From Artocarpus heterophyllus (Eukaryota; Streptophyta; Magnoliopsida; Rosales; Moraceae), in assembly GCA_025403435.1 (NCBI GenBank), contig CM046327.1:14128218-14192217 (forward strand): a DNA stretch of 64,000 bases, written 5' to 3'. Position numbers and translations under genes: made by a program. The notes beneath the pieces are model-generated. The model was not told the origin of the DNA. It saw only the letters and a program-made list of their open reading frames with translations, and searched no databases. Below, piece after piece: positions 20,877 through 56,376 of the stretch (within the stretch, counting starts at the first letter, position 1; each line of letters starts with the position of its first letter).

Positions 20877-21671
20877 GCTACCGAGGGAGGCCAGGACGAC
20901 AACTCGGCCGAGGGCGAGGCCCAGGCTGATTAATCCTTTCTTTTTTCCCTTGTATTCGGACTCAGGAGGTGCCCGGTTTCCTTGTACCCTCCCAATAAAT
21001 AAAATTAAAATATTTTATATTTTCCCGTCTTGCGCCCACTTTTTCTTACGTGTAATTTGGTTGTTTTGTTTTACATCCCACGTAATTTTCAAAGTTAGGC
21101 ACTTCTCGGGGGAGGATCCCAGGCTGGACAGTTGTCCGAGCAGAGGTATATGGTACCTCTGATCTCAGTTAATCCGAGCACTTCTGTTCTCGGTTACTCC
21201 GAGTAGTTATCCTTGTTTGCTTAGTTATCCAAGCAAATTTAGGTTTCTGATCTCGGTCGGGCGACTATAAATGGCGTATAGCTACCCTTTACCCTATTGC
21301 CCCCCGTAGACTTGTTGAAGTTTTAAAGAAACTGTACAAGTATAGGACTAATCGGACACGTAAATGTGCCGAGCAACTTAAAGGCTTGCCCATACAGCGA
21401 CAGTCATGATACATATACTGACTAGCCCCCCGGTCCGGTGACGAGAATGACTCCCTTGATGGGGAGTCAACATCCTGTCTTCCGAGCTGGAGTTATGGCG
21501 TCTTAGGCATACTCTTCCCTTAAAGACATTGCTCAGGTGGAATGAGATTCGGTAAGTTGTGCTCCATTAATATAATATTTACATGGATTTTTCTAGCCCT
21601 GCTCAGCAGGCCTAGTTATAAAAGAATTGTGGCCAGAGATCAAAAAAGGAGTCTGGCTTTGATCTTTTTTT
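20877..21671. other. Tat element spacer between antisense ORF and pol
   Basis: No coding region. It holds the likely antisense poly(A) signal (20994-20999) and repeated GCCGAG/CCGAGC-type text. The small plus ORF at 21542-21787 is not supported. Confidence 0.5.
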
Positions 21672-22637: not shown

Positions 22638-22655
22638 GGTGGGCCAGTAGTAACC

Positions 22656-25887: not shown

Positions 25888-25958
25888 GTCTTTGTGAAAT
25901 TGGCAAAACTTCGACTAGTCACGCTTCACCCTGCTGCCTCGGAGCTTCGGCGGTGGTG

Positions 25959-27300
25959 TCAGCAAATTCTTGTCGCCAACCTGGCGAGCACCTCATCGTT
26001 GGTTGCCACCAGGGGTGTGTAGTTCTGAAACTTGCTGGTTGGCCCCTTTGGCTTATCAGCTTTCTCTTTCTTCTGTTTCTTTGCATGCTCAGCGCTGCCC
26101 TGTTCCAGCGCCTTTTTCTGCTTCTTATCCTTTTTTGTTCTGCTCGGGCCAGCCTCTTCCCGGCGGCTCTTCATGTACTCGGCTGCGTCCGCGTGTCTCT
26201 GGGCATACCCGAGCATTTGCGAAAACGTGTTTGGCTGCTCAAAGGCCAAGGACCATGTCAGCTTCTCGTCTCGGAGGCCCCCTACAAAAATATGTTTGAG
26301 GGTCTCGTCTTCGACGTGCTTGACCTCGAGAGCTGCCCAGGTAAACCGGTTAATATAATCCCTGACGCTGCCGTCTCCCTGCTTGACGGCATACAGGTAA
26401 GTTATTTCTTTCCTCCGCGTCTTGGTTGTAGAGAATGCGGAGGAGAAGGCATCGGCTAAATACCGAAAAGAAGAAATCAACCCGGGTTCGAGTCGTCAGA
26501 ACCACTGTCGGGCAGGGCCTGTAAGAGTAAGTGAGAAAGCTTTACACATTGCAGCATTGCTGGTGTTCTGCAGCAGCATGTGTCCCCGAAAAAGTTCGGC
26601 GTGCTCATCAGCGTCAGTGGCTCCATCATAAGGCTTGATTTGCGGGACTTTGAACTTTGGTGGCATAGACGCCCGCATTATGTGATCCGGGAAAGGCGGG
26701 TCCTGAGCTCCGATTTCATCTAGACCGAATCTACAATTCCGGATCTCATCGATCTGTCGCTGCAGTGCCCGGAACTGACGGCTATTGGTGTCTTCAGGCA
26801 GTTCGACCCGATAGGGTACTCTGCCCACTGCACGGCCTCCAGCCCCGGCCTGACGATTCCGGTTAATTCCTTGAGACCCAAGTCGGTCAAATACCGAGGC
26901 TCGGGAGCCTTGTGGTGAAGGGGCACGAGCCGCTTGGCGACCCACACGGTGTTCTTGAACTTGCCTGTTGTCAGCTGGGATTCCCCTAGTGGATCTCGCA
27001 GACGGCTCGGATCGGCTTTGCTGTGGGTTTGCTGCACTTCGCTCAACCCGACTTCCAGCCTGGTCATCCTGGGCCGGGAGAGGCAGAGCTGGTGCAGCCT
27101 GTCGCTGAGCTTGCTGGGCGAGCTGCTGAGTTAGGATCCGGACCGCATCTGTAAGCTCACGGATCGGATCTTGAGCGGCTCGGGCCTCTACCGGCTTGGC
27201 CCTCGCCGTGCTTCCTTGCCCCCCGGACCGAGATCTCGTGGTCCTAGGACGGCCCCTAGGCCGGCCTGTAGCCGGTTGCCTATGCCTTGCATCGCCTGAC
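25959..27300 (-). pseudogene. Tat gag
   Basis: Retrotransposon gag domain in pieces. 26945-26496 contains LPEDTNSRQFRALQRQIDEI, MPPKFKVPQIKPYDG and ALTLTGPARQWF-type text. After an in-frame TGA (about 26493, where the expected codon is Arg) it continues with SFRYLADAFSSAF, GDGSVRDYINRF and a Lys-rich tail ending near 25959. The N-terminal part before 26945 needs a frame change. Gag would form the virus-like particle. Confidence 0.85.
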
Positions 27301-27393
27301 CCCTCCTGTCGGGCGGTATCATCTCATGTGTTATCTCGTGTTGTCATCTCGGTAGTCCGAGGTATAATAACTTGTAAGTTGGGGCGCGTTCGG

Positions 27394-27410
27394 CCTTCCT
27401 TCTAGCGCCA
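27394..27410 (-). other. Primer-binding site of the Tat element
   Basis: The minus strand reads TGGCGCTAGAAGGAAGG a few bases inside the 5' LTR. The same type of site (TGGCACTAGAAGGAGGG) follows the LTR at 61781-62371. Confidence 0.7.
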
Positions 27411-27413
27411 AAA

Positions 27414-28037
27414 TGTGATGCTTACCGTTGTCCGGCGTCGGATCAATACCCACGTGCGGCTGTGCACGTCCTAACCTCTTCTTAGGCTTGCCCCTGACTA
27501 GGAATGTGTACCTGCGAGAGGGATGACTTGGAGAAATGAGATTAGTCAATAGACAAGGGCTCTCCGATGCTCAAGGCAAGTATTGCTCGACAGAGGTCGG
27601 CAGCTAATTAAGTGTGAAGAAGTCTCTCTCTCTAAAATGCCATAAATGCATCCTATTTATAGGCCACCAGCTGGATCGGGTGCAAGATGGGTTTTGCCCA
27701 TTACCCAGGTATCACATCAAAGTATGACAAGCAGTAAATGACAAGTGTCGCGTCCATCGCCCAATGGATTGGACTCTATCGGACGGCAGCACGTTTGCCT
27801 GGTGTTGGCCTACAAGGATGGGCACTGACGTATCCTTATGAATAACGCGGCCCGACCCAAGCTACCGTACATCCCCGAGGTGGCACTCTTCTTGGGGGCG
27901 TGCCCTTGAATAAATGGAAGGCACCTCGGGAAGAGTGTGATTCGTCGGGTCGGGCAGTAGAGCCAATGTCTGCCGAGCTTAGTTGCCGACCACCAAAGTC
28001 AGCGTCCTCGGTGGTGGCGCCGAGCTTACCCTCAACA
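27414..28037 (-). repeat. 5' LTR of the Tat element
   Basis: 624 bp, matching 14955-15579 with about a dozen scattered differences, mostly transitions. On the minus strand its first bases TGTTGA, read in the HflX frame, give Cys and a TGA stop. Confidence 0.95.
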
Positions 28038-30026
28038 AGAGGGCCCCCATTTTTTACCAAAGAAGCTCCTTTCTACAACATTCTTGGCCTTCACCTTGTC
28101 CTCTTGGTCCCTTAGCCTCTCGTCAATGATTTGAAGCAACTCTTGCAAACCAACTCCCATTAAGGCAGATGTTTTGACATGTGGACCAGACCGATCAACT
28201 TGAGAATAAATCTGATGCACTTCTTTCGAACACTGGCTTTGTTGGTCATCCAAAGTGTTCCAATGGGCAGAAGAGACATCCTCATCACTCAAAGCGTTTT
28301 GGTCTTCTTCTGATGCTAACGGGTCATCAGTAGAGTAATCTTTCTTGTCATCTATAGCTTCAACATTGCCTGTTGATAGTTCGTATGCACTGGAACAGCC
28401 AGCCTGATTGTTTTCTACACTTGGCGACTCCTCATAGTCCATATCCTCTTCTTCCCTAGAAAACATGCTAGCTTGACCATCTTCACCATCTACAAGATAT
28501 TCATCTCTGTCCCTACTCTCCTCTTGCTGATCTATCTGAGCATTTCATATAATAGCTCTTGTTATAATAAATATATTCTACACACAAAAAAGAAGGATGA
28601 GGAAAGGGTTTGTGGTAATACCTTATTCCAAACTTCAATCATATTCTCAATCTTCTCTTTTGATACCCCGATTTGCTCAAGAACACCAACTATGGTTGAC
28701 CGGTGCTCCTCAAGATTGGGAGCAGCACAGTCCAACACATGCTATTAGGATTAATTAAACCTATTAGGCACATCTTTGGAGGCAATATTAACCATACAAT
28801 GATTTTTCTAATTCATTTATGTCATGATGATTTTGTATCATACCACAAAAAGGTGTCATGTGTCAAAGTAATCTTAATATACTGAAAGCCAATAATCAAA
28901 TGATCATATACTTGTAAACTGCAATTAATCTATCAATTTTAAGTTTCACTGATTAGGATAATGTAGTCTTAAGGACCGTTGCAGATTTGGGAGCGTACCA
29001 CAAGCAGATCAGCTTCCACCACCTCTTCTAAAGTTGCATGAAATGCTTCAACTAACTGCAAATTTGAGTCGCTTTAATAGTGAAAACGAATAGCGATAAC
29101 ATATAGTGAAGGGATAAAGCACTTAACCAGCAGTTTTTCAATATACCTGCACTGGCAAATCTGATATGAATCCTACTGTATCACTTCGGAGCACTTTCTT
29201 TCCGGACATGACGCTAACATGATAAAATCAGTGGAAAAGAAGCTCTGGAGAGGTGCCACAATTGAACAGAACAGAGACCAAAATAGAACTCATTCCTTAA
29301 AAATATTACCCTGAAGGAAGAACTGCACTTCTTACTGTAGGATCCACAGTTGCAAAGAGTCTATAGAAAAATAAACGTAACATTTATTATAGTTCACTTA
29401 TTTTTTAGAAAAGACAAAACTACAATACATCTTGAGTGTTACATATCAATGCTTAATGTACATATAGCTATTCTATATAAAAACATATCATGAAAATGGA
29501 TTTTACTACTGACTATCGCTATAGAGAGGGCTGTCCAAGAGTGCACTCACTAACTTAGATTTCCCCTCTTCACAAGAGAAAAATTAACACTTACAAGTTG
29601 AAAGCAAGAAGCAAGCAAGATCTAGTTCCTACTTATGAGAACCAACAAGATTGGAATCAGATCATAGCAAATATAAAGATAAAACCAGAAGTGCATATGT
29701 TTTGTTCAGATAACCTACAGCGTTTGTATAACCAACAACAGCAACAGTAGCTAAACCACGACCGCGTGACCCACCACGTCTCATACGAGAAGCCCGTTGC
29801 ATTGCTTGACTACGACGAACCTCTTCAATTTGTGACAATAAAATTCTCTTTCGTTCTGAAATTCTGATATTATAGTGCTACAAGTGAAAAACTATCGCAT
29901 AAAATGAAAAGAACCATTAATGAGAGCAATAGAACCAAAAGCACGTCTCATATGCCAAATGAGTATCTTATTAATTACAGAAATTTCTAACCTACTTCAT
30001 TATGAGTATACTGTTAATTACATTAC

Positions 30027-36811: not shown

Positions 36812-36876
36812 GTAATTCAATTCATACTTTAAGTATGAACACGACCGACGGTCACAGATTTATAAATGACACAAAC

Positions 36877-38840
36877 TGTAACGCCCCTATATGGGGGTTA
36901 ACAGTTTTTAATGAGATAAAATAAAAATAAATAATAAAAGTAAAACCTTAAAGATTAAAATTTGCCCGGGACTTAAATGAAAACTCTCAACTCAAAAATA
37001 AAAATATAAACGACAAATAAACCACAGTTTTAATGTAGCACCTTAAATTTAATAATATAAACTGTTGTCATCATCATTTTAACCCTCAACACATTATAAT
37101 ACAGTCACAGAAAGTAACAATTGATGCTTACATTATCATGAAGAACATTCTTTACAATTGAGCAGTCCCAATGTAATATAGTTACATCGCTTCCTCAACT
37201 ATATTTCTCGTAGCCACCTCACACTTAGTGAGTCCTGAAAAGATATAAACATAAGGGAATGAACAACACTATGCTCAGTAGAGAAAGCCATTACTCACCT
37301 CTATCATTACCACATTAAAATCTGCATGGTTAGTAAGTTACATCATATTTCAGATTATGAGGTTTATTATGATCACATCTTATGGATACCGTAGTTAATC
37401 GTTACCAAGTGTCATAATTACACATTTATACAAATATTATCAATCATCATTGTTCCTAGGTATCCATGTTAAATTGAGTATCACTCAACTCATCGAAACC
37501 CAAATGGGCGCACTTGATCACCCTATAAACATTCCAAGGGTGTTCCGGTGAGGGGACATCAAGCCCCGAGTCCTCACCAAATCAATTCCTGTACAGTGTG
37601 TTCTGGGACTTTCAACCCAAGGAAGCGTCATCGCCTTCCCCCTATTTTACCTTTTAGGGTATTCATGCCCAAGGACGTAACCGTCGCCCTCTTCATGTCT
37701 CACAATTTCTCTATATTGAATCATTATTAATAGAGTTAGTTTTCCTAACCATGCTTCTCAATTTATAACATGTGTCAATTCATTATGTTCCTCGCCGTAC
37801 AATACAAGACGAGTCCATGTCATAGTTTCATATGTGATAATCATATAATATCAGTTCAACATAGATATATATATATTGCGGCAAAACAATCAATTTTAAT
37901 TCTATAAAAACCTCACAAAAGATGAGTAATAGAATCCCTACCTTTTAAGCTTATCAACAGTCTCTTAATCCTGGAATCAATTAACGTTAGCTCCATACTC
38001 CCTTGATCCTAAGGCGTGCATAAGGACAATTAAAACTAAAGCACAACATACAACTACATTCATAAAATTTATTTTAATTTAATCTTAGAATTTCAAGAAA
38101 TAACCACTGCCTATAGAGGTATTATAAAGTTTAACAATATAAATTTTCTGTCTAGGGCATATACACTTAGACTTCATACATATGCTCCAAAATAGCAACA
38201 AACATATACTTAGGTTTAAGAACGCAAATTTGAATAATCCTTTAGTATAAAAGAAAATTTATAAATGAAAGACTAAATTTGTTCATAAGATTCTAACCTC
38301 GGATTATGGTTAGTTGGAAGCTTGAAATGGTTTCAAAACAGGTTCCTTTACTTCGGTATGACTGAAATTCTTGCTCAAATGGAGGTGATGGTGGCTGATT
38401 TTTATGGCTGCCTTGAAGAAGTTCTCTAAGTATTTTGCTTCAGCAAAGAAATAAGAAGAAGAGTGTGGGAACCGTGGAAGAGAAAGGAAGAAAAGATGAA
38501 GTCTTTGAAAAGAAGTGATAGAAACAATTATAGAGGAGACATGTTGAAGCATGTCACGGAGGAAATAAAGAAAATGAGGGTCAAGAGTAGTTGGAAAAGA
38601 TATCCTTATGTCTCATCTAAAGACTTTAACACACATAATGCCAATATGACATTTTTGAGATTTATTAGAAGTTCTAAGGCTTTTTAGTAATCATACTAAA
38701 TAAATATAGGAGAATTTTAGAAAACTTAAAAATAGATAAAAATAAATATTATAAAATAAATTTAAATGAAGCAATTTTTTTTATACATTAAAATTAATTT
38801 AATTACCTCAATACCCGTTAGGAGAATAACGGGTGTCACA
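36877..38840 (-). repeat. 3' LTR of the LOG-carrying element
   Basis: 1,964 bp, almost identical to 43100-45063; differences noticed include positions near 37262, 37352 and 38113. Conserved short ORFs inside (38310-38552, 38463-38687) recur only because the LTR is duplicated. Confidence 0.95.
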
Positions 38841-38860
38841 GCTCTACCCCCCTTAAAGAA
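38841..38860 (-). other. Polypurine tract of the LOG-carrying element
   Basis: The minus strand reads TTTAAGGGGGGTAGAGC directly before the LTR start TGTGACACCCG, as in Del/Tekay-type elements. Confidence 0.8.
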
Positions 38861-39792
38861 ATTTCGTCCTCGAAATTTCAATTCTAGCAATACTAGTAAA
38901 AATTATGATTCCACTATGATTCCAATTCTGAGTCTAAACCGTTAATGTTGTTTGTCCTCCAAATTTAAGTTATCGTATTTCCACTTATTTACTTGCATAA
39001 TAAATCTTACTCCTAAATCCCTCAATAAGAGTATTTCTGACAAGTTTCAACTTGTAACACCGTATAATAGTCTAAGAATCTGATCAGGCATACATATTGA
39101 CCATACCATGATTCCAGTCCTTCATTGTCCATGGACTGTGATTTACAATCACATTTAAGGAGATTGCTAGAGAAATTTTATATACTTCATCTTTAGGTTC
39201 CTTTTCCTTTTTGAGTAAGGAAAAGTCAAATATATTTGATTTCATACCTCAACTAATAAACTAGAACATAATCATAAAACATATATCACAAACACTTCTA
39301 TTCAAAACTATACATTAAACTTACCCATAGAGATATTAAACGGAATCTCAGAGTTGCAAACATACCCGGCATATTTTTCATTAAACAGCTATCCTCATGA
39401 CACAAACATTCAATCCAAATAATATACTCATATTTCATATGGAATATCCCCATAACTGACTCTGGTACTTCCACATAATATTAACAGAATATTACACATT
39501 ACAAACATAATACGGATACGTTTCGAGAGTACAAGGCACTCCGTATACCAGCTATCCATATCATGCATGCTTAGAGGATACAAAAACATCGATAAACAAA
39601 AGATCGGACCTTAAGAAGGATGCGTTTCGAGAGCATCAAGTACTCCGTATCCAGCCATCCCGGCATTAGGCTCAATGAATCTAAAAGATTTAACGACGTA
39701 CCACAAGAAACACAGAATACAAGGCAAACGGTTATTCGTAACACACGAAATACGGACACACATGCCTACATGCCAAAGATAAAACAAAAAGA
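38861..39792 (-). other. 3' untranslated part of the captured LOG-like unit
   Basis: Non-coding in the element. From about 39790 down to about 39310 it is collinear with 3610-4115 downstream of the old LOG relic; shared stretches include TTTAGATTCATTGA and CTGTTAATATTATG/CTGTTAATGTTTG. A ~95-bp motif with GTACTC(G)AAA and CGGAGTAC/CGGAGTGC occurs twice (near 39515-39545 and 39615-39650). Confidence 0.6.
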
Positions 39793-40443
39793 TTACAGAT
39801 GGAGATTCAAATCAATTGGCCGCTCCCGGCTTTCCCTTTCCCATTCAAGCTTGGATGTTGCAGTGTCGGATTCTGGATGTATGATTTGCATTTTATCTAT
39901 CAATTCCTCAGTTGTTGAAGCAGTGACAAAGATTTGTCTCTCCGATTCTGTAGTGATGTTTTCTTCCACAGCGTAATCTAGAAATTTCAAAAGACCGTCA
40001 TAAAAACCCTTTACGTTCAGCAGTCCCAAAGGTTTGGAATAAAAGCCCAACAATTGCCCACAAGCAACTATAAATATTTCCTCAAGAGTACCTAGACCAC
40101 CAGGTAATGCTATAAAAGCATCAGAATTATAGATTATGTCTTTAAAATTTTTAGGGATACTCCTGACTCCTTCTCCCTTACCTATGGCTTCCTTACAAAG
40201 GTTTCCTTCAACTGGAATATGAGGCCAAATTCTTACATCAGTAGCGTCGCTAGACCTAGCTGCTAGTGCCATATTTACCATCATTTTTATACTACCACCC
40301 CCATAGATTATGTTAATCTTCTTGCGTGCTAGGACTTGCCCTAAGTGATTTGCAGCTTCTAAATAAGCTTTATCTTTTCCAAGGCTGGAACCACAAAAGA
40401 CACAGACATTCTTTATTTTCTTCGTGGACTGGGAGGTAGACAT
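39793..40443 (-). CDS. Intronless LOG-like protein (cytokinin phosphoribohydrolase family) inside an LTR element
   Basis: 216 residues from the ATG at 40443, which aligns with LOG starts and with the ACG of the old copy; 13 more codons are open upstream to 40482. LOG enzymes release active cytokinin bases from riboside monophosphates. Seen: IKNVCVFCGSSLGKDKAYLE (residue ~8), INIIYGGGS, NSDAFIALPGGLGTLEE with the PGGxGTxxE signature, KPLGLLNVKGFYDGLLKFLD and TTEELIDKMQII. Differences from typical LOGs: the GLMG part of GGGSxGLMG reads KMMV, the following ~25 residues are divergent, and the usual HQRK-AEM stretch before SDAF has no Arg-Lys at the aligned positions (KNFKDII). Activity is therefore uncertain. 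Plant LOG genes have several introns, so this looks like a processed copy captured by the element and transcribed in its sense direction. Confidence 0.85.
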   Translation of the reverse strand: MSTSQSTKKIKNVCVFCGSSLGKDKAYLEAANHLGQVLARKKINIIYGGGSIKMMVNMALAARSSDATDVRIWPHIPVEGNLCKEAIGKGEGVRSIPKNFKDIIYNSDAFIALPGGLGTLEEIFIVACGQLLGFYSKPLGLLNVKGFYDGLLKFLDYAVEENITTESERQIFVTASTTEELIDKMQIIHPESDTATSKLEWERESRERPIDLNLHL

Positions 40444-41088
40444 ATTTGGTTTATAGAAGTGGTTGCTTAATGTCTGCTCCACTTAGACTTCGGGTTCTAC
40501 ATGAGATTTTAAAGATGAGAAATATACAAAAAGGGCTAAAGAGATAGACGAGTAGGTAATGAAAAGGTAATCCAAAGATTTAAACAAAATCTTGTGCGGA
40601 TAAGAAAGTAAGATAAGGTGATTGATAGTTTACAGAAAATCTGATTCACTTTTTGAAAAAGATTAGACTCTAATTGTATAACTTTTGACAATTGAGAACA
40701 ATTCGACAGAAGACCCTCTTGACACAACTGTAGACTTTTTGACAAATATACACCAAGTCTAGAAATTTAATATAAACGACAAATACTGTAGAACTTTTGA
40801 AATTTGAGACACAAATCTTGAAATATCTGGATAAGTTTTTCAAAATTCAAACATATTACTGTACCGTATGTAACGTGTCTGATAAGATAATATATTTTAT
40901 TATATATATATATTTAAGAAAATCATAAATTAAATAAGATATTAACACTTACTGTATCAATCTAATAATCACAATTATTTCAAACACAAAAGCAAATATT
41001 CTGAGTAAAAGAAAAACACAAACTGTTGAACATCAGCTAAAACTGCTTCAAATAAGTAAAGACTAAATAACCTTTATAGAGCGATGAC
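40444..41088 (-). other. 5' flank of the captured LOG-like ORF
   Basis: Non-coding. Its part nearest the ORF is collinear with 2650-2998 upstream of the old relic (shared TTATCTT.CTTTTCTTA, TTTTGTTTAAA and TTTAAAATCT), so 5' sequence travelled with the gene. A short (TA)n lies near 40897-40910. Confidence 0.5.
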
Positions 41089-41610
41089 TTATTCCCCATC
41101 CAGTTTTCTTATGGCTTGGCAAACAGGATCTAGAAATACCATATTCCTGAGGCGTTGTCTTTCTGTATAAAATTTAGGCCAGAGTTTAAAAATAGCTCCT
41201 TGAACATATCCACTAGGGTGACCGTGGAGAGGAGGATGGATGCTATCCAAGTTCTCCTTTGAAAGTCCATCCCTACAAAACCTTATTTTATCCTCTCTAT
41301 TCGTAGACATATAACCAGGTGAAGTACATTTACCGTTACAATTTTGTCTTCCACATTTGTTACAAGTGATCACGATGGCACGAGCTCTTCTTTTCATTGC
41401 ACTACGACTGGTACCTGTTCCTGGTAAACCGACATCTTGACTAAAGTCACTCGGACGGATTTTCCCCTCTATCAACATTCTCACATCACAAGGGATGCCA
41501 AAACGCATAAGAATCCACAACCGAGTAATTCTAGCCTTATATTTCTTTTTGAGAATCTTTTGGGAGAGTGATGGGAAATACTTTCTCAGGTGTTGGTACT
41601 TTGGGTCCAT
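41089..41610 (-). CDS. Unknown Cys-motif protein of the LOG-carrying element
   Basis: 173 residues, ATG at 41610, stop at 41089-41091. The N-terminus is strongly basic (LSQKILKKKYKARITRLW). The middle has KRRARAIVITCNKCGRQNCN with a CxxCxxxxCxxxC cluster, a likely metal site that lacks the His of the retroviral CCHC knuckle. The C-terminal third contains GHPSGYVQGAIFKLWPKFY. I do not recognise the family. It lies between PBS and the LOG-like ORF, in sense, where gag would normally be, so a nucleic-acid-binding role is conceivable but unproven. The unbroken frame fits the young age of the element. Confidence 0.6.
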   Translation of the reverse strand: MDPKYQHLRKYFPSLSQKILKKKYKARITRLWILMRFGIPCDVRMLIEGKIRPSDFSQDVGLPGTGTSRSAMKRRARAIVITCNKCGRQNCNGKCTSPGYMSTNREDKIRFCRDGLSKENLDSIHPPLHGHPSGYVQGAIFKLWPKFYTERQRLRNMVFLDPVCQAIRKLDGE

Positions 41611-43080
41611 GATGAGATGAAAGAAGAGTAAATAGAAAAGAAAAATTAAGATAGTAAATTGCAGAATCCTAGAATTCCTTCTTCTTTTAGAGGAAAAGAA
41701 GAATTTTTAATGAAAAAGAAGAGGATTTGCGATTTAAAGAGAAAATAACAAATTAAGAGAGAAAAAGTGAACTCGGAGAAATAAGCTCTTATGCACAGTA
41801 AACGTATATGTAAACAATGATTAAACCACTGTATATGACACGTATAGAGACCACGTGGGAGAGACAGTGTGAATCAAACTGATTTAAGATTTAAACTAGG
41901 CCCAAATGTTCTTAGTTGAAAATGGTCAGGTTGTTTTGGGCCTTAACACATTTAGAACGAGTTAAATAACAAACATAAAATTGAAAACCAATTCGTATGA
42001 ATCTTAAACCCAATTCAAAGCCCACTATACATAAAGTTAACTATGAACAACAAATCTAATTTAACGACAACAAGGATCTTCCTGAATGATATTTAAAATC
42101 ATTTCATAACAACACAATCTTCCAGCAACTCAAATAATTTTGTTTTAATCAAAACCTTATTGAACAATGCATACACCCATATGTTATTCATAATACTTAA
42201 CATCTATCAATGGATTCATCATCATTACTACCAAGGGTTTAGAATGCGACTAACCTTGAAATCAATACGATTTACGTCTTCCAACATAGACCATATCAAT
42301 GAACAAAGACACTAGATGTTACTACTTAAGAACATCTACAATCCCCACAATTCTACTCATACAATATATAATTTCCTCATATAACAAAACCTTAGGTAAC
42401 CAAAAGATTCACTGATACACTTAAATACAATGTACGTAACAAAATATTCCAATTTTGAGATTCATGCATTCTAGACTTTACACAGTCTCAACAGACCAAA
42501 AGTCTAACATTTATCTCTCTCATGATTCAATACCATGATTCCCAACTTATATCATATTCCTCAAATATATAGAACTTTTAAGAAAAGACATTGACACTTA
42601 TGTGCTCCATCGAATCCACACATAATCATTACTTAGGTTTGAATCAATTACGAAAAATTTGGCATATCTATGTCAAACTTTAAAATCAATAAATCAAGCC
42701 TTATATTTCTCATTGTTTTTCACGAGACAAAAGGCTTTTAAATCCTCTTATCTATACGAATTTCTCATCGTTTATACGAATTAGATATGCTTATAGATCC
42801 AAATATTATACGAATCTCTCATAAGCAATCTACTTATAAACTCATTCCATATAATTATCATTCCCTCATAACTATTAATACTTTCCTTCTATATAATTAT
42901 TGTACTCATATAACTATTGATATTTTCATTCTATGGCCTTTCCATGTTACATCCTTTTAGACTGTATAAATCAATGTGAAGGTTCATTTTGATGATGACA
43001 ATGAAAATTCAGCTTCAAAACCATCTCAAAAATATATTTTTTTAAAGTGGTGCTACACTCCCTAGGTTAACCGAACCTAG
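41611..43080 (-). other. Leader of the LOG-carrying element
   Basis: 1.47 kb of AT-rich sequence between the PBS and the first ORF. No retrotransposon protein homology seen on either strand. Direct small repeats such as TATACGAAT and CATATAACTATT/CATATAATTAT occur at 42755-42920. Confidence 0.5.
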
Positions 43081-43092
43081 GCTCTGATACCA
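43081..43092 (-). other. Primer-binding site of the LOG-carrying element
   Basis: The minus strand reads TGGTATCAGAGC, the standard initiator tRNA-Met PBS, seven bases after the 5' LTR end at 43100. Confidence 0.9.
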
Positions 43093-43099
43093 AAAATTC

Positions 43100-45063
43100 T
43101 GTAACGCCCCTATATGGGGGTTAACAGTTTTTAATGAGATAAAATAAAAATAAATAATAAAAGTAAAACCTTAAAGATTAAAATTTGCCCGGGACTTAAA
43201 TGAAAACTCTCAACTCAAAAATAAAAATATAAACGACAAATAAACCACAGTTTTAATGTAGCACCTTAAATTTAATAATATAAACTGTTGTCATCATCAT
43301 TTTAACCCTCAACACATTATAATACAGTCACAGAAAGTAACAATTGATGCTTACATTATCATGAAGAACATTCTTTACAATTGAGCAGTCCCAATGTAAT
43401 ATAGTTACATCGCTTCCTCAACTATATTTCTCGTAGCCACCTCACACTTAGTGAGTCCTGAAAAGATATAAACATAAGGGAATGAGCAACACTATGCTCA
43501 GTAGAGAAAGCCATTACTCACCTCTATCATTACCACATTAAAATCTGCATGGTTAGTAAGTTACATCATATTCCAGATTATGAGGTTTATTATGATCACA
43601 TCTTATGGATACCGTAGTTAATCGTTACCAAGTGTCATAATTACACATTTATACAAATATTATCAATCATCATTGTTCCTAGGTATCCATGTTAAATTGA
43701 GTATCACTCAACTCATCGAAACCCAAATGGGCGCACTTGATCACCCTATAAACATTCCAAGGGTGTTCCGGTGAGGGGACATCAAGCCCCGAGTCCTCAC
43801 CAAATCAATTCCTGTACAGTGTGTTCTGGGACTTTCAACCCAAGGAAGCGTCATCGCCTTCCCCCTATTTTACCTTTTAGGGTATTCATGCCCAAGGACG
43901 TAACCGTCGCCCTCTTCATGTCTCACAATTTCTCTATATTGAATCATTATTAATAGAGTTAGTTTTCCTAACCATGCTTCTCAATTTATAACATGTGTCA
44001 ATTCATTATGTTCCTCGCCGTACAATACAAGACGAGTCCATGTCATAGTTTCATATGTGATAATCATATAATATCAGTTCAACATAGATATATATATATT
44101 GCGGCAAAACAATCAATTTTAATTCTATAAAAACCTCACAAAAGATGAGTAATAGAATCCCTACCTTTTAAGCTTATCAACAGTCTCTTAATCCTGGAAT
44201 CAATTAACGTTAGCTCCATACTCCCTTGATCCTAAGGCGTGCATAAGGACAATTAAAACTAAAGCACAACATACAACTACATTCATAAAATTTATTTTAA
44301 TTTAATCTTAGAATTTCAAGAAATAACCACTGCCCATAGAGGTATTATAAAGTTTAACAATATAAATTTTCTGTCTAGGGCATATACACTTAGACTTCAT
44401 ACATATGCTCCAAAATAGCAACAAACATATACTTAGGTTTAAGAACGCAAATTTGAATAATCCTTTAGTATAAAAGAAAATTTATAAATGAAAGACTAAA
44501 TTTGTTCATAAGATTCTAACCTCGGATTATGGTTAGTTGGAAGCTTGAAATGGTTTCAAAACAGGTTCCTTTACTTCGGTATGACTGAAATTCTTGCTCA
44601 AATGGAGGTGATGGTGGCTGATTTTTATGGCTGCCTTGAAGAAGTTCTCTAAGTATTTTGCTTCAGCAAAGAAATAAGAAGAAGAGTGTGGGAACCGTGG
44701 AAGAGAAAGGAAGAAAAGATGAAGTCTTTGAAAAGAAGTGATAGAAACAATTATAGAGGAGACATGTTGAAGCATGTCACGGAGGAAATAAAGAAAATGA
44801 GGGTCAAGAGTAGTTGGAAAAGATATCCTTATGTCTCATCTAAAGACTTTAACACACATAATGCCAATATGACATTTTTGAGATTTATTAGAAGTTCTAA
44901 GGCTTTTTAGTAATCATACTAAATAAATATAGGAGAATTTTAGAAAACTTAAAAATAGATAAAAATAAATATTATAAAATAAATTTAAATGAAGCAATTT
45001 TTTTTATACATTAAAATTAATTTAATTACCTCAATACCCGTTAGGAGAATAACGGGTGTCACA
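43100..45063 (-). repeat. 5' LTR of the LOG-carrying element
   Basis: 1,964 bp, the partner of 36877-38840. Its promoter would drive the minus-strand ORFs. Confidence 0.95.
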
Positions 45064-45099
45064 CAAACAAACATCCTTGCAGAGTGTAGCAAGCATAGT

Positions 45100-47078: not shown

Positions 47079-49115
47079 CTACAAAGCCTTAGCACTGCTG
47101 TGCCTCCCACCCCAACGGCGTCTCCGAGCCCTCCTCTTCCTCCCGTCCTCTTTCTCCTTGGCTTTCTCTTTCAAATCCCTCTCTCCTCGTCTCTTATACA
47201 TCTTAAAAGTCATCTGTCTATCCTCAGCCATCTTCCTCACCTTCTCGGTGATCTCTGCTGCAATTTGTCTGTTATATAGCTTCTTTAACCCGCGCATGAG
47301 CTTCGCAAAAGTATCTGGCTGCGGCATCACGTCCGCTTCCATCATGTCCAAGCAGTAAGAACAAGCTTCTTTCACATGCCCATTCTTGAATAGCGCATGA
47401 ATCCATATAGTCCACGCATATACATTAATCTCACACCCTTTGTTCACTATACAACTCCAAACATCCTTAGCCATTTCGAGCTTGTCAGCTCGTAACAAAG
47501 CGTTCATTAGCTCCTTCAGGGTTCCATATTGTGGTCCAGATAGCAAACCTCTCTCCACCATTTCTTTGAAGTACTGACAAGCTTCAATCAAACAACCTTG
47601 TCCAAGGAACCCATGAATCATAACAACAAAAGTGTCGAGCCCCGGGCTAAGACCACTCGCTTCAATCTCGTTCCACAACCGAACACCTTCTTTAACCTCC
47701 CCTAACTTGCACACCAACCGGATCACTGTGTTGTAAATGCTCAAATCAGGAACACAACCAATCTTCCTCATCTCCTCCATTAGCTCCACACACTCCTCGA
47801 GCTCCTCCTTCTTCTCGTGCGCCAACATGATATGCAAATACGTCATCTCATTTGGACTAAACCCTCGCTGAATCATACCATCCAAAATCTCGTAGCCCCT
47901 CTCAACCTTCCCCCACTTGCAGAACCCACTTATCAAAGTGGTGTAAGTCACAACATCAGCCTCACAACCACTCCTCTGCATTTCAACAAACACCCTCATT
48001 GCCTCCTCCATCTTCTCCCGCTTACACAGAGCCTGAATTAACACAGTGTACGATGCTGCATTCGGCAAACAACCTTTTCTTCTCATCTCCTTCAGAAGAT
48101 CATAAGCATCCACCATTTTCCCCGCCCGAGCATACCCGCCAAGAAGGTTATTATAAACCACAATGTCGGGCTCAAACCCGGCTTCCTTCATCTGCACCAA
48201 CACGAATTTCGCCTCGATAAGCTTGCCTTCTCTGCACCAACCATACAACAACGAAGTGAAATGCTTCAAACTCGGCGTAAACTTAACCCTCATCTCTTCA
48301 AAGAGAGAAGCTGCTTCCTTGACACTTCCATTTTTACACAAAGCATCCAACAAACACCCGAAAACATACTCGTCGGGCTCGCACCCATACTTAGACATTT
48401 CATCAAACACCTCGACTGCTTTCTTCACCATTCTTGCGGAAGCGAACCTCCGCATTAAAACGACGAAAACTTCCGTGGTAATCAATTCCGGATTCTCTTT
48501 CCTCATTTCCTCCAGCAATGCCCAAACGGCGCCGAACTGCCGCATCTTCCCCAGAGACCTGATCATGGCCTTGTAGACCTCGTAGCTCGGCCTGTAACCG
48601 GGCTGCTTCGACGCCCAGACGAAGAACCTGTAGCCCAAGCTCCCGGCGTCGCCACACCGGCCCAGGACTCGCTCCGTCAGGCCGGAGCGCAACACGACGC
48701 CGGATTCTTGCAATGCGAGTTCCAGCTTAGGGATGCGAGAATGAAATTTGCGTAGGATTCTGTAGATTTTCTCGACGTCGCCGGAGAATTCGTCGTGGGT
48801 TTTCTTGTCTTCGTCGGAGGTGACCGGGTTTTGCTCGAGGCGAACCAGGGAAAACCCAGTTGCAGCTGCTCTGTTGTTCGATAGAACATTATTGTTGTGG
48901 AGACTTCGTGTGGAGGAGAACTGGGTTTTGAGCGGTAACAAGTATGGTTTGGTGTTTGGTTGGGAAGAAAGTGAGAAATGGCGGTTGTTGAACAATGACC
49001 TTGTTCTGTAATACACTCTCTGCATTTTTTGGTTTATTGATGTTTTCATTGCTCGCTTCCTCAAACTTCGTAAACGCATTTCTGTGATTCTTTTCCCAGC
49101 AGATTTGGTTTTCAC
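47079..49115 (-). CDS. P-class pentatricopeptide repeat protein
   Basis: Intact, intronless, 678 codons, typical of PPR genes. The N-terminus is rich in Arg, Ser and hydroxylated residues (MQRVYYRTRSLF at residue 31, initiating at 49025, is a good alternative start), as expected for organellar, probably mitochondrial, import. About residue 170 to 600 holds a run of 35-residue P-type repeats such as DVVTYTTLISGFCKWGKVER and PDIVVYNNLLGGYARAGKMV. No E, E+ or DYW domain. The tail is very basic (KRRARRRRWGGRHSSAKAL). PPR proteins bind organellar RNA base by base. The basic tail and its neighbours suggest the orthologue of Arabidopsis At3g49730/At5g65820; this is from memory and should be checked. 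Confidence 0.93.
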   Translation of the reverse strand: MKTKSAGKRITEMRLRSLRKRAMKTSINQKMQRVYYRTRSLFNNRHFSLSSQPNTKPYLLPLKTQFSSTRSLHNNNVLSNNRAAATGFSLVRLEQNPVTSDEDKKTHDEFSGDVEKIYRILRKFHSRIPKLELALQESGVVLRSGLTERVLGRCGDAGSLGYRFFVWASKQPGYRPSYEVYKAMIRSLGKMRQFGAVWALLEEMRKENPELITTEVFVVLMRRFASARMVKKAVEVFDEMSKYGCEPDEYVFGCLLDALCKNGSVKEAASLFEEMRVKFTPSLKHFTSLLYGWCREGKLIEAKFVLVQMKEAGFEPDIVVYNNLLGGYARAGKMVDAYDLLKEMRRKGCLPNAASYTVLIQALCKREKMEEAMRVFVEMQRSGCEADVVTYTTLISGFCKWGKVERGYEILDGMIQRGFSPNEMTYLHIMLAHEKKEELEECVELMEEMRKIGCVPDLSIYNTVIRLVCKLGEVKEGVRLWNEIEASGLSPGLDTFVVMIHGFLGQGCLIEACQYFKEMVERGLLSGPQYGTLKELMNALLRADKLEMAKDVWSCIVNKGCEINVYAWTIWIHALFKNGHVKEACSYCLDMMEADVMPQPDTFAKLMRGLKKLYNRQIAAEITEKVRKMAEDRQMTFKMYKRRGERDLKEKAKEKEDGRKRRARRRRWGGRHSSAKAL

Positions 49116-49580
49116 AACAACAACTTGTTTAGGCTATTATTTTGTTTTTGGGATTTTTTTTTTTTTAAGGATTAACTGAAAAAGTCTCTCTTGGATCCTA
49201 ATTCCTGTCTTACCGTAAAATACGTTGGCTTTAATTTTCCAACATAACAGATCCGGGTCGTCAAAAAATAAGACAGACAAATAAGCTCCTGTTAAGATTT
49301 AGGAAAATGCTACGTTTGAGGGCACTGGAATTCTCTACTGGTGGAGACCTTTTATTAGGACCGTTAGATTTGATCTAACAGTGACAAAATTAAGTGAGTA
49401 TTAAAATTACAATAAACCTTACCACATGTAACCAATACCAAGTTTAAACCCAACCCTAATTTCATCTATCTCAAACTCAAATGTAAACTCTAATTTCATC
49501 TCTCTCAATCTCTCCACGTCCCAATAATCTGCCACCGGAGGGCAAGTCCAATCCCCGCTGGACAGCCAAGCCCAAGCCTC
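49116..49580. other. 5' flank of the PPR gene
   Basis: No gene. An A/T-rich stretch at 49140-49170. Confidence 0.4.
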
Positions 49581-49940: not shown

Positions 49941-50369
49941 TGTTAGAATTATGACCCACATAATTAATTAAAGGCCTATAAAATTTATCAGATTTATTTA
50001 TTTAGTTTAATAATTATTTAAATGTTAAAATTTTATTGGCTATGAGGGGTTGCAACTCTTATTAAAAGATGTGTCTATATCTGAAAAGATATGTCTGTAT
50101 CTGAAGAGATATGTGCTTTGATGGAAAGACAGCTATTGAAGGTCTCTGGTCCTCTCTCCACCCATTCAATTGTATTCTTCTCTCCATCAGAAAATACGTT
50201 AAAGAAACTGTGGGTTTAGAGAGAGAAATTGGGTTTTTCTTGTCTGACTATTTTTGGTCCAGAGTTTTTGAAAAATTAAAGCTATGAATCAAGGTACGCT
50301 CTAAATCTTCTTATATGAAAATTATTGAGTTCTAAAATCTCTGGGTATTATAGATATTAAAGTCTTACA
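49941..50369 (+). repeat. 5' LTR of the Copia element
   Basis: 429 bp. Compared with the 3' LTR it lacks about 14 bases containing TATAAATA after GAAGGTCT. It contains ATGAATCAAG followed by GTACGC near its end (50284-50299), a possible start codon and splice donor. Confidence 0.9.
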
Positions 50370-51486
50370 TGTGGTATTCAGAGCATTTAGGTTTTTGAAC
50401 TCATGATTTTTCTTTAAAGTTATATTACAGATTATTTTCTTATTGTTTTGCTGAGAATTAAATTATGGGTATATGTGAATTAAGGATACAATTTCCTTAC
50501 TGTATTATCGTTTTTATTTGCTTTGTATCCCTGCGTTTGCGTGTGCATGCATATGTATACAGATAAAGCTGTACATTTTTTTTTCTTTGTTTCTTATACA
50601 CACACGTGGTACAGAAGTGGATACAGAGAACCGAAAAAAAAAACGACAATCAACAATTACAGTCGCTTATCAAATAAAAGTTTGCTTTTGATAAAAGTTA
50701 TTTGGCAATCAATTTATTTGCCGATTAAGTTATTTGCCCATTCAAGACCACAAAATTACTTTCCTTTGCTATATGCAAGTTATTGAATGAAATTGTTATA
50801 TGCAAGTTATTGAATGAAATTGTTGATCGGCAAATCTATTAAATATATATATTGATGTTATGCAATTGATGTGATATGTACTGTTTTGTTTGTTTTAAAA
50901 AAACATGTATGCGCAATATTACGTTTATGGGAACTTCTCAGTAAAAGGTTGTATATATGATGTTGATGCATGTATATACTTGATTATAATTAATTACTTG
51001 AAACAAGTAAAACTATTGTTTCCAATGTTGAAATTACATTATTGTAGTTTGTTAGTCACTAAAGTGGCCAAACTTTAAAGCTCAGTAATTTTCAAATTGA
51101 GAAACAAAAGTTCAATTACTCATGAATTTTGATGCTTATAATTGAGATGACATTTATAGATCATGGGCCATTGAATTTTATCTATTATAAAAACTTAGGA
51201 ATCGCCCAAAGGTTGATTAGCTTTCTTTATAATTGATGAATATAATAGTTGGTAATCAATATGTCCTATTATTTTTGTTTGTTTATCCAAAGATAGCAAG
51301 CATTTTTACTAGGCTATTTATGATTACCAAATTAAATTTTTACTTTTAAATTAGCATCATTTATAGTTTGTATGTCTTAGTATCACCCAAAAGAGAACTA
51401 GGATATATAATTACTGTCTTAGTTTGAATCTAATTATGTGATCATCTCAAAGCATTAATGTATGAATGTTTCTTGCATATTTGCAG
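50370..51486 (+). other. Copia leader, possibly an intron
   Basis: About 1.1 kb of non-coding AT-rich DNA between LTR and gag, ending in TTTGCAG at 51480-51486. A 27-bp unit starting ATATGCAAGTTATTGAATGA is repeated in tandem at 50771 and 50798. Confidence 0.55.
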
Positions 51487-52406
51487 TATCTGTTCTTGTT
51501 TCTCTACATTCGCATGCTTCATCTGTTCCCTTGTTCAATGGATTGAATTTCTCTGATTGGTGCGAACAAGTCCAATTTTACTTAGATGTCTTGAATCTTG
51601 ATTTAGCACTTCAAGATAAGGAACCCACTACTATTACTGATGCTAGTAGTGAGGAGGAGAAAATTTTTCATAAATTATGGGAAAGGTCTAATAGATTAAG
51701 CTTAATGTTCATGCGAATGACAATAGCAAACAACATTAAAAGTACTCTTCCCAAGACTAAAAGTACTAAGGAATTTATGAAACTAGTGGAAGAGCGCTCT
51801 CAAACTGCTGATAAGTCTCTTGTTGGTACATTAATGGCTAAATTAACCAACATGAAATTTGATGGTTCTTGTACTATGCATGAGCATGTCCTTGAAATGA
51901 CAAATATAGCAGCAAAATTAAAGTCTTTGGGGATGTCTGTGGATGAGTACTTTCTAGTATAGTTCATTCTCAACTCACTTCCTCTTGAACAATATGGTCC
52001 ATTCCAGATGAGCTATAACACAATTAAAGATAAATGAAATATTAATGAATTGACCATTATGCTTATTCAAGAGGAGACGAGATTGAAGAATCAGAAACCT
52101 CATTCCATTCATCTTGTGAATCAAAAGGCTGAAAAGAGCACTAAAAAGAAGCCTGGAAAGAACAAGAAGAAAGGATTCAAGAAGGAGTTGCATAACCTGA
52201 ATGAGTCAACTCAAATCCACAAGAAGGAACACAATGTTAAGTGCTATTTTTGTAACAAATTTGGGCACTTAAAGAAAGATTGTCAAAAACGTAAGGCTTG
52301 GTTCGAAAAGAAAGGTAAGCCTTGCGCTTTAGTTTGTTTCGAATCAAATTTAACTGAAGTTTCTTATAATACTTGGTGGATTGATTTAGGTTCAATATAT
52401 TTCTAA
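51487..52406 (+). pseudogene. Copia gag and protease start
   Basis: Gag homology from FNGLNFSDWCEQVQFYLDVL through MKLVEERSQTADKSL and HEHVLEMTNIAAKLKSLGMS, then a stop at 51960. After further stops, another stretch to 52406 has the zinc knuckle CYFCNKFGHLKKDC. The protease active site reads WWIDLGSIYF rather than the usual WWIDSGA. Gag packages the RNA; this copy is broken. Confidence 0.85.
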
Positions 52407-52410
52407 TACG

Positions 52411-53640
52411 ATGCAGGGATTCCTTACGATCCAACCCATAAGAGCAAATGAAAGTTTTATTTACATGGGGAATCGAGATAAAGCTTCAGTGGAAGGAATT
52501 AGCACTTATCGCTTAATATTAGATACTAAATATTATCTTGATTTATACCAAACTCTTTATGTACCTATTTTTTCTTACAATTTAGTTTCTTTATCAAAAC
52601 TTGATGTAGCGGGATTTTATTGTAAGTTTGGATTTGGATCTTTCAGTTTATATAAAAATAATAATTTTATTGGCTCTGGAATTCTTTATGATGGTTTATA
52701 TAAGTTAAAGCTTGATAATCTTTTTGCTGAAACTTTGCTAACCATGCATCGAAGTATTGGAACTCAACGGAGTTTAGTTGATGAAAGTTCTGCTTATTTG
52801 TGGCATAAACGCTTGGGTCACATATCCAAGGAAAGAATAGAGAGATTAGTAAAGAATGAAATTCTTTCGAATTTAGATTTTACTGATCTCGGTGTGTGTA
52901 TTGATTGCATTAAAGGAAAGCAAACTAAACACACTAAGAAAGGGGCTACAAGAAGTACACAGTTTCTTGAACTCATACATACCGACATATATGGACCTTT
53001 TGATACTCCATCATTTAGTAGAGAAAAGTATTTTATCACTTTTATTGATGATTTTTCATGTTATGGTTATCTTTATCTATTGCATGAAAAATCTCAATAT
53101 GTTGAAGCCCTTGAGGTATTTATTAATGAGATTGAGAAACAATTAGATAACAAGGTGAAAATTATAAGATCAAATAGAGGTAGTGAATACTATAAAAAGT
53201 ATGACGAGTCAGGGCAATGTCCAGGTCCATTTGCTAAATTCCTAGAAAAGCGAGGCATATGTGCGCAATACACTATGCCAGGTACACCACAACAAAATGG
53301 TGTAGCAGAAAGGCATAATCGTACATTAATGGATATGGTTAGGAGCATGTTAAGTTATTCATTTTTACCCTTATCTTTGTAGATGCATGCATTAAAGACC
53401 GCCATGTATATACTAAATAGGGTTCCTAGTAAGGCAGTCTCAAAAACTCCTTTTGAGATATGGACAGAAAGGAAACCTAGTTTAAGGCACCTGCATGTTT
53501 GGAGTTGCTCGGCGGAAGTGAAAATTTACAATCCACATGCAAAGAAATTAGATTTTAAGACGACTAGTGGTTATTTATTGGTTATTCTGAAAAATTCAAA
53601 GGGTATAAATTTTGTTGTCCTACCCATAGTACGAGAATAG
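52411..53640 (+). pseudogene. Copia GAG-pre-integrase and integrase
   Basis: WHKRLGHISKERIERL and the HHCC-type zinc region lead into the integrase core: LIHTDIYGPF (first Asp), IIRSNRGSEY (the second catalytic Asp reads Asn), and TPQQNGVAERHNRTLMDMVR (Glu region). A TAG at 53380-53382 interrupts before MHALKTAMYILNRVPSKA. The Asp-to-Asn change alone should abolish strand transfer. Confidence 0.85.
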
Positions 53641-53954
53641 TTGAATCTGGAAATGCTAGGTTCATCGAGAATGGTGAAATTAGTGGAAGTGGAGAACCAC
53701 ACAATGTGGTCATTGAAGAAGTTAGGGTAGAAGTACCTCTACCTATAACTTCCAAGATTGTTCCTAACATTGTTGTACAGCCTAACCATGTTCAAGAATA
53801 ACAAGTGAATGGCTAACCATTTCACAATGAAGTTGTACTCAAGGAACCAATAGTAGCTGAACCACAAGAAACAATATTAAGAAGATCTTAAAGAGAAAAA
53901 CGATTTGTTGTTCTTGACGATTATGTAGTTTATCTACAAGAGTCTGAAATTGAC

Positions 53955-55551
53955 TTGGAAATTGATAATGATCCGATTTCAGATCCAGTTTCGTTTTCAC
54001 AAGCCATGGAAAGTATGGATTTTGACAAGTGGCTCAATCTTATGAAAGATGAGTTAAAATCTATGGATCAAAATCAAGTTTGGGACCTTGTTGAGTTGCC
54101 TGAAGATTGCAAGAGAGTCGGGTGTAAATGGGTCTTTAAGACCAAGCACGACTCTAAAGGCAATATTGAATGGTACAAGGCATTGACCAATCAAAAGTTT
54201 TACTCAGAAAGAAGGCATTGACTATAAAGAGACTTTTTCACCGGTCTCTAAGAAAGATTCACTCAGAATTATTATGGCATTGGTGGCTCATTTTGATTTA
54301 GAGTTACACCAAATGAATGTGAAAACCGTCTTTCTCAATGGAAATTTAGAGGAAGAAGTCTATATGGACCAACTTGAAGGCTTTTCAATTAAAGAAAAGG
54401 AACACATGGTGTGTAAATTAAAGAAGTCAATATATGGACTTAAACAAGCTTCCCGACAATGGTATCTTAAGTTTAATAATGTCATTACTTTGTTTGGATT
54501 TAAAGAGAACACTGTTGATCGGTGTATATATATGAAGGTCAGTGGGAGCAAGTTTATTTTCTTAGTCCTATATGTTGATGATATTTTGCTTGCTGCTAAC
54601 AATCTTGGTTTATTACATGAAACTAAGAAATTCCTCTCTAAGAACTTTGAAATGAAAGACATGAGTGAGGCAACTTATGTGATAGGAATTGAAATATTCC
54701 GTGATAGATCACAAGCATTGTTGGGGTTGTCTTAGAAAAGCTATATTAACTAAGTTTTAGAGAAATTTAAGATGGACAAATGCTCAACATGTATAGTTCC
54801 GATTCAGAAGGGGGACAAATTTAGTCATATGCAATGTCCAAAGAATGAATTGGAACGAGCGCAAATGAAAAACATTCCTTATGCATCTGTTGTTGGTAGC
54901 TTGTTGTATGCTCAAACTTGCACCAGACCAGATATTAGTTTTGCTATTGGGATGTTGGGAAGATATCAAAGTAATCCAGGAATAGATCATTGGAAAGCTG
55001 CAAAGAAAGTTCTCAGGTATTTGTAAGGAACAAAGGACCATATGCTCACTTATAGAAGATGTGATCATCTTGAAGTTGTTGGTTACTCAGATTCAGACTT
55101 TGCCGGATGTGCTGACAGTAGAAAATCTACATTCGGTTATATGTTCCATTTGGCCAAAGAAGAAATTTCATGGAAGAGTGCGAAGCAGTCCGTCATTGCT
55201 GCATCCACTATGGAGGCCGAGTTTGTGGCATGCTTTGAGGCCACAAGTCATGGTTTATGGTTGCGGAATTTTATTTCGGGACTTGGAGTTGTCGACAGTA
55301 TAGCCAGGCCGTTGAAAATTTATTGTGATAATGCCGCAGCAGTCTTTTTTGCCAAGAACGACAAGTATTTTGATGGTGCAAAACGTGTGGATATTAAGTA
55401 CTTAGTCATTAAGCAAGAAGTTCGAGAACGTAAAGTGTCAATTGAACAAATTAGCGCCAATCTTATGATTGCAGATCCTTTAACAAAAGGATTACCGCCC
55501 AAGACATTTATTGAATATGTTGAACGAATGGGTGTTATTAGATGTCATTAA
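53955..55551 (+). pseudogene. Copia reverse transcriptase and RNase H
   Basis: Starts with MESMDFDKWLNLMKDELKSM and VGCKWVFKTKHDSKGNIEWY. A frameshift near 54205 follows, then VNGNLEEEVYMDQLEGF-like text, KSIYGLKQASRQWYLKFN, and the active site LYVDDILL (near 54571). After stops near 54735 and 55024 comes RNase H: GYSDSDFAGCADSRKSTFGY, STMEAEFVA, IYCDNAAAVF and the end IADPLTKGLPPKTF. Not functional. Confidence 0.9.
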
Positions 55552-55934
55552 TGGTTATGTATTATGTTTTATTTCATTTTAATGATATGACACTTGAGTT
55601 CACTTATTATATTCTCGATATATCCTGTTTTCTATTTTTGTATACATGATTATTATAGATTAATGTTTGACAGGATAGTCTCAATGAAGACATTAAAGTG
55701 GACTATTATTATACCTCTCAATTATGAATCATGTTAAATAGATATCTAATGTTGTAGTACATGGAAGGGACTACACTAGATTGTGATGTACAACCGCCAT
55801 GACTTACTTTAGATTTTCTGCTTAATTATGATGTAGAGTATTAGCCAATTTTTAAAAGATTTAACATAATATTGTTGTGCACATTATGGCATTATTAAAC
55901 TAAAAATTAATATTATATGGGCCAAGTGAGAGAA

Positions 55935-56376
55935 TGTTAGAATTATGACCCACATAATTAATTAAAGGCTTATAAAATTTATCAGATTTATTTATTTAGT
56001 TTAATAATTATTTAAATGCTAAAATTCTATTGGCTATAAGGGGTTGCAACTCTTATTAAAAGATGTGTCTATATCTGAAAAGATATGTTTGTATCTGAAG
56101 AGATATATGCTTTGATAGAAAGATACCTATTGAAGGTCTATAAATAAGAGTCTGGTCCTCTCTCTCACCCATTCAATTGTATTATTTTCTCCATCAGAAA
56201 ATATGTTAAAGAAACTGTGGGTTTAGAAAAAGAAACTAAGTTCTTCTTGTCTTACTATTTTTGTTCTAGAGTTTCTAAAAAATTAAAGCTATAAATCAAA
56301 GTACGCTATAAATCTTCTTATATAAAAATTATTGAGTTTTAAGATTTCTGGGTATTATAGATATTAAAGTCTTAAA
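55935..56376 (+). repeat. 3' LTR of the Copia element
   Basis: 442 bp, with an intact TATAAATAAGAG segment near 56140. The positions equivalent to the 5' LTR ATG and GT donor read ATA and AAGTAC here. Confidence 0.9.

Follow-up and report, generated by a model that had tools for sequence, protein, structure and literature searches.

Large retrotransposon derivatives (LARDs) are long terminal repeat (LTR) elements without gag-pol that are held to be non-coding, with a long interior, and the maize element Bs1, also without gag-pol, is chimeric and holds host gene sequence. A LOG-family domain, YgdH/LOG, has been found in consensus sequences of Ty3/gypsy elements from two Citrus species and, where no copy filter was used, from Populus trichocarpa, in a study that cites Steinbauerova et al. 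2011 (PMC9289625). Sense additional open reading frames (ORFs) between pol and the 3' LTR, suspected of an accessory role, have been described in other plant LTR elements (PMC7264820). Here, we characterize an LTR element in a 64,000-nucleotide stretch of the Artocarpus heterophyllus genome (GCA_025403435.1, contig CM046327.1, positions 14,128,218 to 14,192,217, forward strand; hereafter the window), which contains two sense ORFs: ORF A, for a protein resembling viral nucleic-acid-binding proteins (NABPs), and ORF B, for a LOG-derived protein. Like LARDs and Bs1, the element has no gag-pol, but it keeps two complete ORFs, and its family does so over thousands of copies. Like the Citrus and Populus elements, it is a rosid LTR retrotransposon with a LOG-family domain; by their description those elements were found via reverse transcriptase, whereas the family studied here lacks gag-pol, carries an NABP-like ORF and has lost LOG catalytic-site residues (PMC9289625). 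The additional ORFs mentioned above are described as env-like (PMC7264820), whereas ORF A resembles viral NABPs and stands in an element without pol. With a probability of roughly 60%, we interpret the element as a member of a young, high-copy, non-autonomous LTR family, probably derived from Ty3/gypsy, that lost gag-pol and kept two accessory genes serving the element.

A preliminary description of this locus, made from the letters alone, had reported a young LTR element with 1,964-bp LTRs, a target-site duplication (TSD) CAAAC, a primer-binding site (PBS) and a polypurine tract (PPT). All of these were recovered (Table 1): the LTRs have TG...CA ends and differ by 3 substitutions and 0 indels over 1,964 bp each. 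If plants accumulate 0.7-1.3e-8 substitutions per site per year, 3 differences in 1,964 sites place the insertion very roughly 0.06-0.11 million years ago. The positions of the PBS and PPT orient the element on the minus strand, and from 5' to 3' it consists of the LTR, a leader of ~1.49 kb, ORF A, 645 bp, ORF B, ~0.94 kb, the PPT and the second LTR. We take the PBS to be of the initiator-tRNA-Met type, and PPT and PBS together are presumably chromovirus-like. The preliminary description had found no retrotransposon protein in the interior; indeed, no gag-pol ORF, as an autonomous element would have, was seen among the interior ORFs of this element, but the second sense ORF, ORF A, had been overlooked, as had a solo LTR and a decayed LOG copy elsewhere in the window. 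The intronless, uninterrupted LOG-type ORF in sense orientation was found as described. An Rfam scan of the window gave 0 matches; for promoter and splice motifs we compiled simple motif lists, from which no conclusion was drawn.

Table 1. Features of the LTR element and of related sequences in the window
Feature	Position	Strand	Remarks
Whole LTR element	36877-45063	minus	LTR pair, TSD, PBS, PPT
5' LTR (TGT...ACA)	43100-45063	minus	1,964 bp
3' LTR	36877-38840	minus	1,964 bp
TSD CAAAC, left copy	36872-36876		adjoins 3' LTR side
TSD CAAAC, right copy	45064-45068		adjoins 5' LTR side
PBS TGGTATCAGAGC	43081-43092	minus	junction with 5' LTR recurs genome-wide
PPT AAGGGGGGTAGAGC	38841-38854	minus	adjoins 3' LTR
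ORF A, 173 aa, viral-NABP-like	41089-41610	minus (sense to element)	basic stretch and C-X2-C-X4-C-X3-C
ORF B, 216 aa, LOG-derived, intronless	39793-40443	minus (sense)	PGGLGTLEE kept; tail IDLNLHL
Solo LTR, same family, opposite orientation	18036-20397	plus	TSD AGACC at 18031-18035 and 20398-20402; extra 373-bp segment at 18826-19198
Decayed ORF B copy with flanks	2984-4138	plus	67% identical at the DNA level; reading frame with 4 stops and a gap

To estimate the abundance of the family, we searched the genome (985 Mb in 334 contigs) for the 5' LTR/PBS junction (34 bases, <=2 mismatches) and obtained 3,707 matches, with 0 for the backwards control. At 8.2 kb per element, this extrapolates to about 30 Mb, equal to 3% of the assembly; the figure lies at the upper end, since a junction may lack a full element. 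Protein searches, in which the best 150 of 6,117 first-look candidates for LOG and the best 150 of 5,824 for NABP were scored, yielded full-length, stop-free ORFs in 150/150 and 150/150 cases, respectively. Because such best-scoring lists favour good copies, we also hand-picked copies with exact junction matches from ~100 listed places (18 on contig C1 and 2 on contig C2), 19 of which were readable. The NABP ORF was present in all 19, uninterrupted in 17 and damaged in L075 and L076; the LOG ORF was present in 18, uninterrupted in 17 and damaged in L086, while the rearranged copy L082 had no LOG within the stretch read. In the stretch read, gag-pol did not replace the two ORFs in any of these 19 copies. 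Copies picked by their NABP contained LOG in 20/20 cases (uninterrupted in 18), and those picked by their LOG had an uninterrupted NABP in 17/20, with damage in L017 and L026 and no NABP in the stretch of L027. The absence of LOG from all other copies, by which the preliminary description could have been refuted, thus did not occur in the copies checked: LOG is a gene of the family and no lone passenger, given its presence in 18/19 junction-picked copies. On the same count we reject a host LOG gene flanked by LTRs by chance. Among the 20 LOG-picked copies, ten combined a complete LTR pair (0-12 substitutions) with a perfect 5-bp TSD; L012 matched the LTRs in full and had no TSD, and nine others were not judgeable. 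Eight of these nine had an extra segment of ~373-379 bp in one or both LTRs, at the same place as the segment in the solo LTR of the window (a likeness by size and place), and may form a subfamily. The family is young, very abundant and without its own copying machinery.

Next, we compared variant codons among the junction-picked copies and the window. The LOG ORF had 35 non-synonymous versus 24 synonymous variants, and the NABP ORF 20 non-synonymous and one stop (21 together) versus 20 synonymous. Against neutral ratios for LOG and NABP of 3.5 and 3.8 (unweighted) or 2.8 and 2.9 (transitions weighted), one-sided tests that ignore the copies' relatedness gave p values of 0.001 and 0.013 for LOG and 7e-5 and 0.001 for NABP (unweighted and transition-weighted, respectively). 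LOG variation from the LOG-picked copies was set aside as biased. When only variants shared by several copies were counted, NABP was still constrained. Amino-acid changes among copies are therefore fewer than expected, clearly for NABP and modestly for LOG, and the family differs in this from LARDs, which are defined by having no coding capacity. Both ORFs might instead be passengers, idle in the non-autonomous copies and intact only through a recent burst or seeding by an unseen autonomous source that needs them. The 0-12 substitutions between LTRs, which leave little time for decay, and the weak LOG constraint in part of the tests are consistent with such passengers; the non-synonymous deficit in the junction-picked sample argues against them, as does the comparison of ORF B with the decayed copy, in which second codon positions are best conserved (0.81 versus 0.69 and 0.64 at the other positions and 0.68 downstream). 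We consider idle passengers rather unlikely.

ORF A of the window on its own matched Viral_NABP (E 0.012), MCM_OB (0.072) and Carla_C4 (0.11) in Pfam, all under the cut-off. When it was aligned with 14 relatives, 13/15 members matched Viral_NABP and 13/15 Carla_C4 (PF05515 and PF01623; E <= 0.1), with best values of 1.9e-7 and 3.5e-7, respectively. A profile search returned 856 proteins at E <= 0.01, of which 120 were listed; the named sources among these were Xanthoceras sorbifolium, Populus x canadensis, P. alba, Acer yangbiense, Rhamnella rubrinervis, Hibiscus cannabinus and Orobanche minor. A relative with 50% identity is encoded at L051:1736-2347, on a contig of 3,330 bp assigned to a bacterial metagenome-assembled genome, directly 3' of an integrase (rve, Integrase_H2C2) and in the same sense; the contig does not include its 3' LTR. 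Its protein scores 33.9 bits against the Viral_NABP cut-off of 23 and just under the cut-off of Carla_C4. As the NABP-like ORF follows a retrotransposon integrase, which we take to be Athila-like from its motifs, this contig is most likely plant contamination. As far as the integrase is concerned, the order in L051 would place this NABP-like gene in the position described for additional sense ORFs in plant LTR elements (PMC7264820).

Carlavirus proteins of this type are described as binding nucleic acid; those of potato virus H and potato virus M suppress local silencing, and that of chrysanthemum virus B showed no silencing suppression in one test and is reported as a transcription factor (PMC3689765). 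Judging from its relatives, ORF A probably belongs to the Pfam family of these cysteine-rich proteins, and it shares with them the order of a basic stretch followed by four cysteines; it is longer, has another cysteine spacing and is borne by a retrotransposon. The spacing, C-X2-C-X4-C-X3-C in ORF A versus C-X2-C-X9-C-X4-C in a carlavirus (PMC3689765), fits a different account of its origin, in which flexiviruses acquired ORF A from an old gene of plants or retrotransposons, or ORF A encodes a look-alike zinc-binding protein. This account also draws on the wide occurrence in plants (856 proteins, seven named plant sources among the 120 listed) and on the IMG/VR scan, in which 54 pattern matches were found and none was confirmed as a relative. 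The profile matches of 13/15 members to both viral families speak against it, as does the L051 protein scoring above the Viral_NABP cut-off, and we regard a non-viral ORF A as a tentative minority view. A flexivirus replicase-like sequence has been reported in cucumber, and the available passages of that report mention no NABP (PMC3136472). Against PDB sequences, the profile of ORF A reached a best E value of only 0.76. We also queried the genome with P0006 for a closer NABP family; the best 150 of 5,312 first-look candidates were 51-54% identical and may be members of the present family, and the idea was dropped.

ORF B matches Lysine_decarbox in Pfam (E 2e-21), and a LOG fold is predicted for it (mean predicted local distance difference test [pLDDT] score 74; best PDB match 2a33, E 6.6e-15). 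It shares this fold and the PGGxGTxxE motif with LOG phosphoribohydrolases (PMC4979012), and the motif residues are fixed in 36/36 copies (ungapped and full length, window included; L034, L035 and L086, with indels, were left out). For CgLOG, a catalytic role has been proposed for Arg99 and Glu122; Met96, Lys100 and Glu121 line the adenine, and alanine exchange at positions 96, 99 or 100 nearly abolished activity (PMC4979012). Aligned with AtLOG3 and in CgLOG numbering, ORF B shows Ile96, Asn99 and Phe100, with Glu121 and Glu122 retained; all five residues are fixed in 36/36 copies. Thus, in contrast to LOG phosphoribohydrolases (PMC4979012), the catalytic Arg and the adenine-binding Lys and Met are replaced, and an LxLxL tail is added. 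Among the 120 listed relatives of ORF B, Arg is kept in 107 and Lys in 14 of the 116 readable ones, so that the loss of Lys is general and that of Arg special to the window family and a few others. ORF B most likely no longer releases cytokinin, judging from these residues, and the intact cytokinin-activation enzyme of the preliminary description is probably not what the copies encode.

The tail DLNLHL is conserved in 35/36 copies, and 88/120 listed relatives have an LxLxL tail, versus about 14% after shuffling of the last 14 residues. It lies in an exposed, low-confidence and probably disordered part of the model. LxLxL is the EAR-repressor motif, and such tails recruit co-repressors; the tail of ORF B may perhaps bind a host co-repressor, for instance one of the TOPLESS type.

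The preliminary description had also suggested that the ORF looks like a processed transcript picked up by the element; read as a recent capture, it would be spreading as a working cytokinin-activation gene under an LTR promoter. This reading agrees with an intronless, sense, uninterrupted ORF with PGGxGTxxE and the LOG fold, and with an almost identical protein in 12 contigs from other sources. However, the Arg99, Lys100 and Met96 positions are replaced in 36/36 copies, and in a tree of 46 rows with midpoint rooting ORF B groups only with P0015 (1 residue apart) and the old, decayed copy of the window (100/100), on a long branch that lies among divergent LOGs and apart from banana LOGs. The match to the decayed copy also extends ~500 bp past the ORF on its downstream side. 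No close host LOG was among the 120 listed relatives, the nearest named ones, from Xanthoceras, Populus, Diplodiscus and Reevesia, being 41-49% identical. We find recent capture of a working gene very improbable, although the LOG ORF may have originated from a processed transcript at some time. In IMG/VR, 18 LOG loci with 25-62% identity in partial alignments to the protein were taken for phage or bacterial LOGs. For the LOG relative P0068 and the NABP relative P0149, the longest contig has the same listed length, 8,723 nt; short contigs coincide in length too, so this is only a hint that LOG and NABP share a contig elsewhere. Two LOG-like proteins from Xanthoceras (P0016, P0017) apparently consist of two LOG units head to tail. 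ORFs of such elements can be annotated as host LOG genes; a relative with 45% identity that may be element-borne is named LOGL10 in Populus trichocarpa.

We therefore return to the reading of a Ty3/gypsy-derived family with two retained accessory genes. Its ancestor would have been a Ty3/gypsy-type element with an NABP-like and a LOG-derived gene between pol and the 3' LTR, from which gag-pol was lost and both sense genes were retained. For copying, the family would depend on Gag-Pol supplied in trans by an autonomous relative. By analogy with its viral relatives, the NABP-like protein might bind nucleic acid and dampen silencing or act in the nucleus, and the LOG-like protein, which keeps the nucleotide-binding motif, might act by binding nucleotides or a protein of the host (a co-repressor, perhaps) instead of releasing cytokinin. 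Both proteins are most likely of use to the element and not to the host. Either they would give an advantage to the very copies encoding them, or an unseen autonomous source depends on them and gives rise to new copies. Several observations count against this reading. No autonomous partner was found, a proper search not being possible. The interior leader holds 41 ATGs upstream of ORF A, and expression of ORF A and ORF B would probably need an internal start or splicing. ORF A of the window scores 16 bits where the Viral_NABP cut-off is 23, and its structure model was too poor to be used (mean pLDDT 49.6). Beside the relatedness of copies ignored in the variant tests, the constraint on LOG is weaker in NABP-picked copies alone (17:10, p 0.06-0.15) and with variants shared by several copies (p 0.13-0.27 for the junction sample, 0.03-0.10 pooled). 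Selection among element-borne LOG copies, raised in the preliminary description, is hence visible as the overall deficit (35:24) and unclear with shared variants.

A stronger version, which we regard as possible and somewhat doubtful, is that a plant LTR lineage assembled a two-gene module of an RNA-virus-type NABP and a non-catalytic LOG with a co-repressor-type tail, that this module is maintained by selection in this genome even after the loss of gag-pol, and that the success of the family comes from its own anti-host genes. The carriage of LOG by an LTR element is not wholly new, as the preliminary description had supposed, since YgdH/LOG domains in Ty3/gypsy are already published (PMC9289625). 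Among the matches listed in the open-licence literature, we came across no LTR element described as carrying an NABP-like ORF, nor any open-licence report of a gypsy non-autonomous LTR retrotransposon with lysine decarboxylase. As far as these searches go, the pairing of LOG with a viral-type NABP and the keeping of both genes without gag-pol are new. The family suggests that it may be accessory proteins as well as cis signals that determine which of the non-autonomous elements can spread. With it, one can test if viral-type proteins help plant retrotransposons against host control and if the fold of a hormone enzyme can be reused as a non-enzymatic factor.

Finally, the window contains other features. 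The solo LTR is enclosed by a GC-rich LTR element at 14958-28052 with 637-bp end repeats (97%), whose long minus-strand ORFs are Ty3-like by eye. At 49941-56374, repeats of ~430 bp (90% identity) surround plus-strand ORFs that are Ty1/copia-like by eye, and at 1377-1859 a 242-bp unit is repeated in tandem with 100% identity. A minus-strand open frame of 684 codons at 47079-49133 resembles a pentatricopeptide repeat (PPR) protein by eye, and a plus-strand frame at 60277-60909 appears, also by eye, to be part of a methyltransferase.

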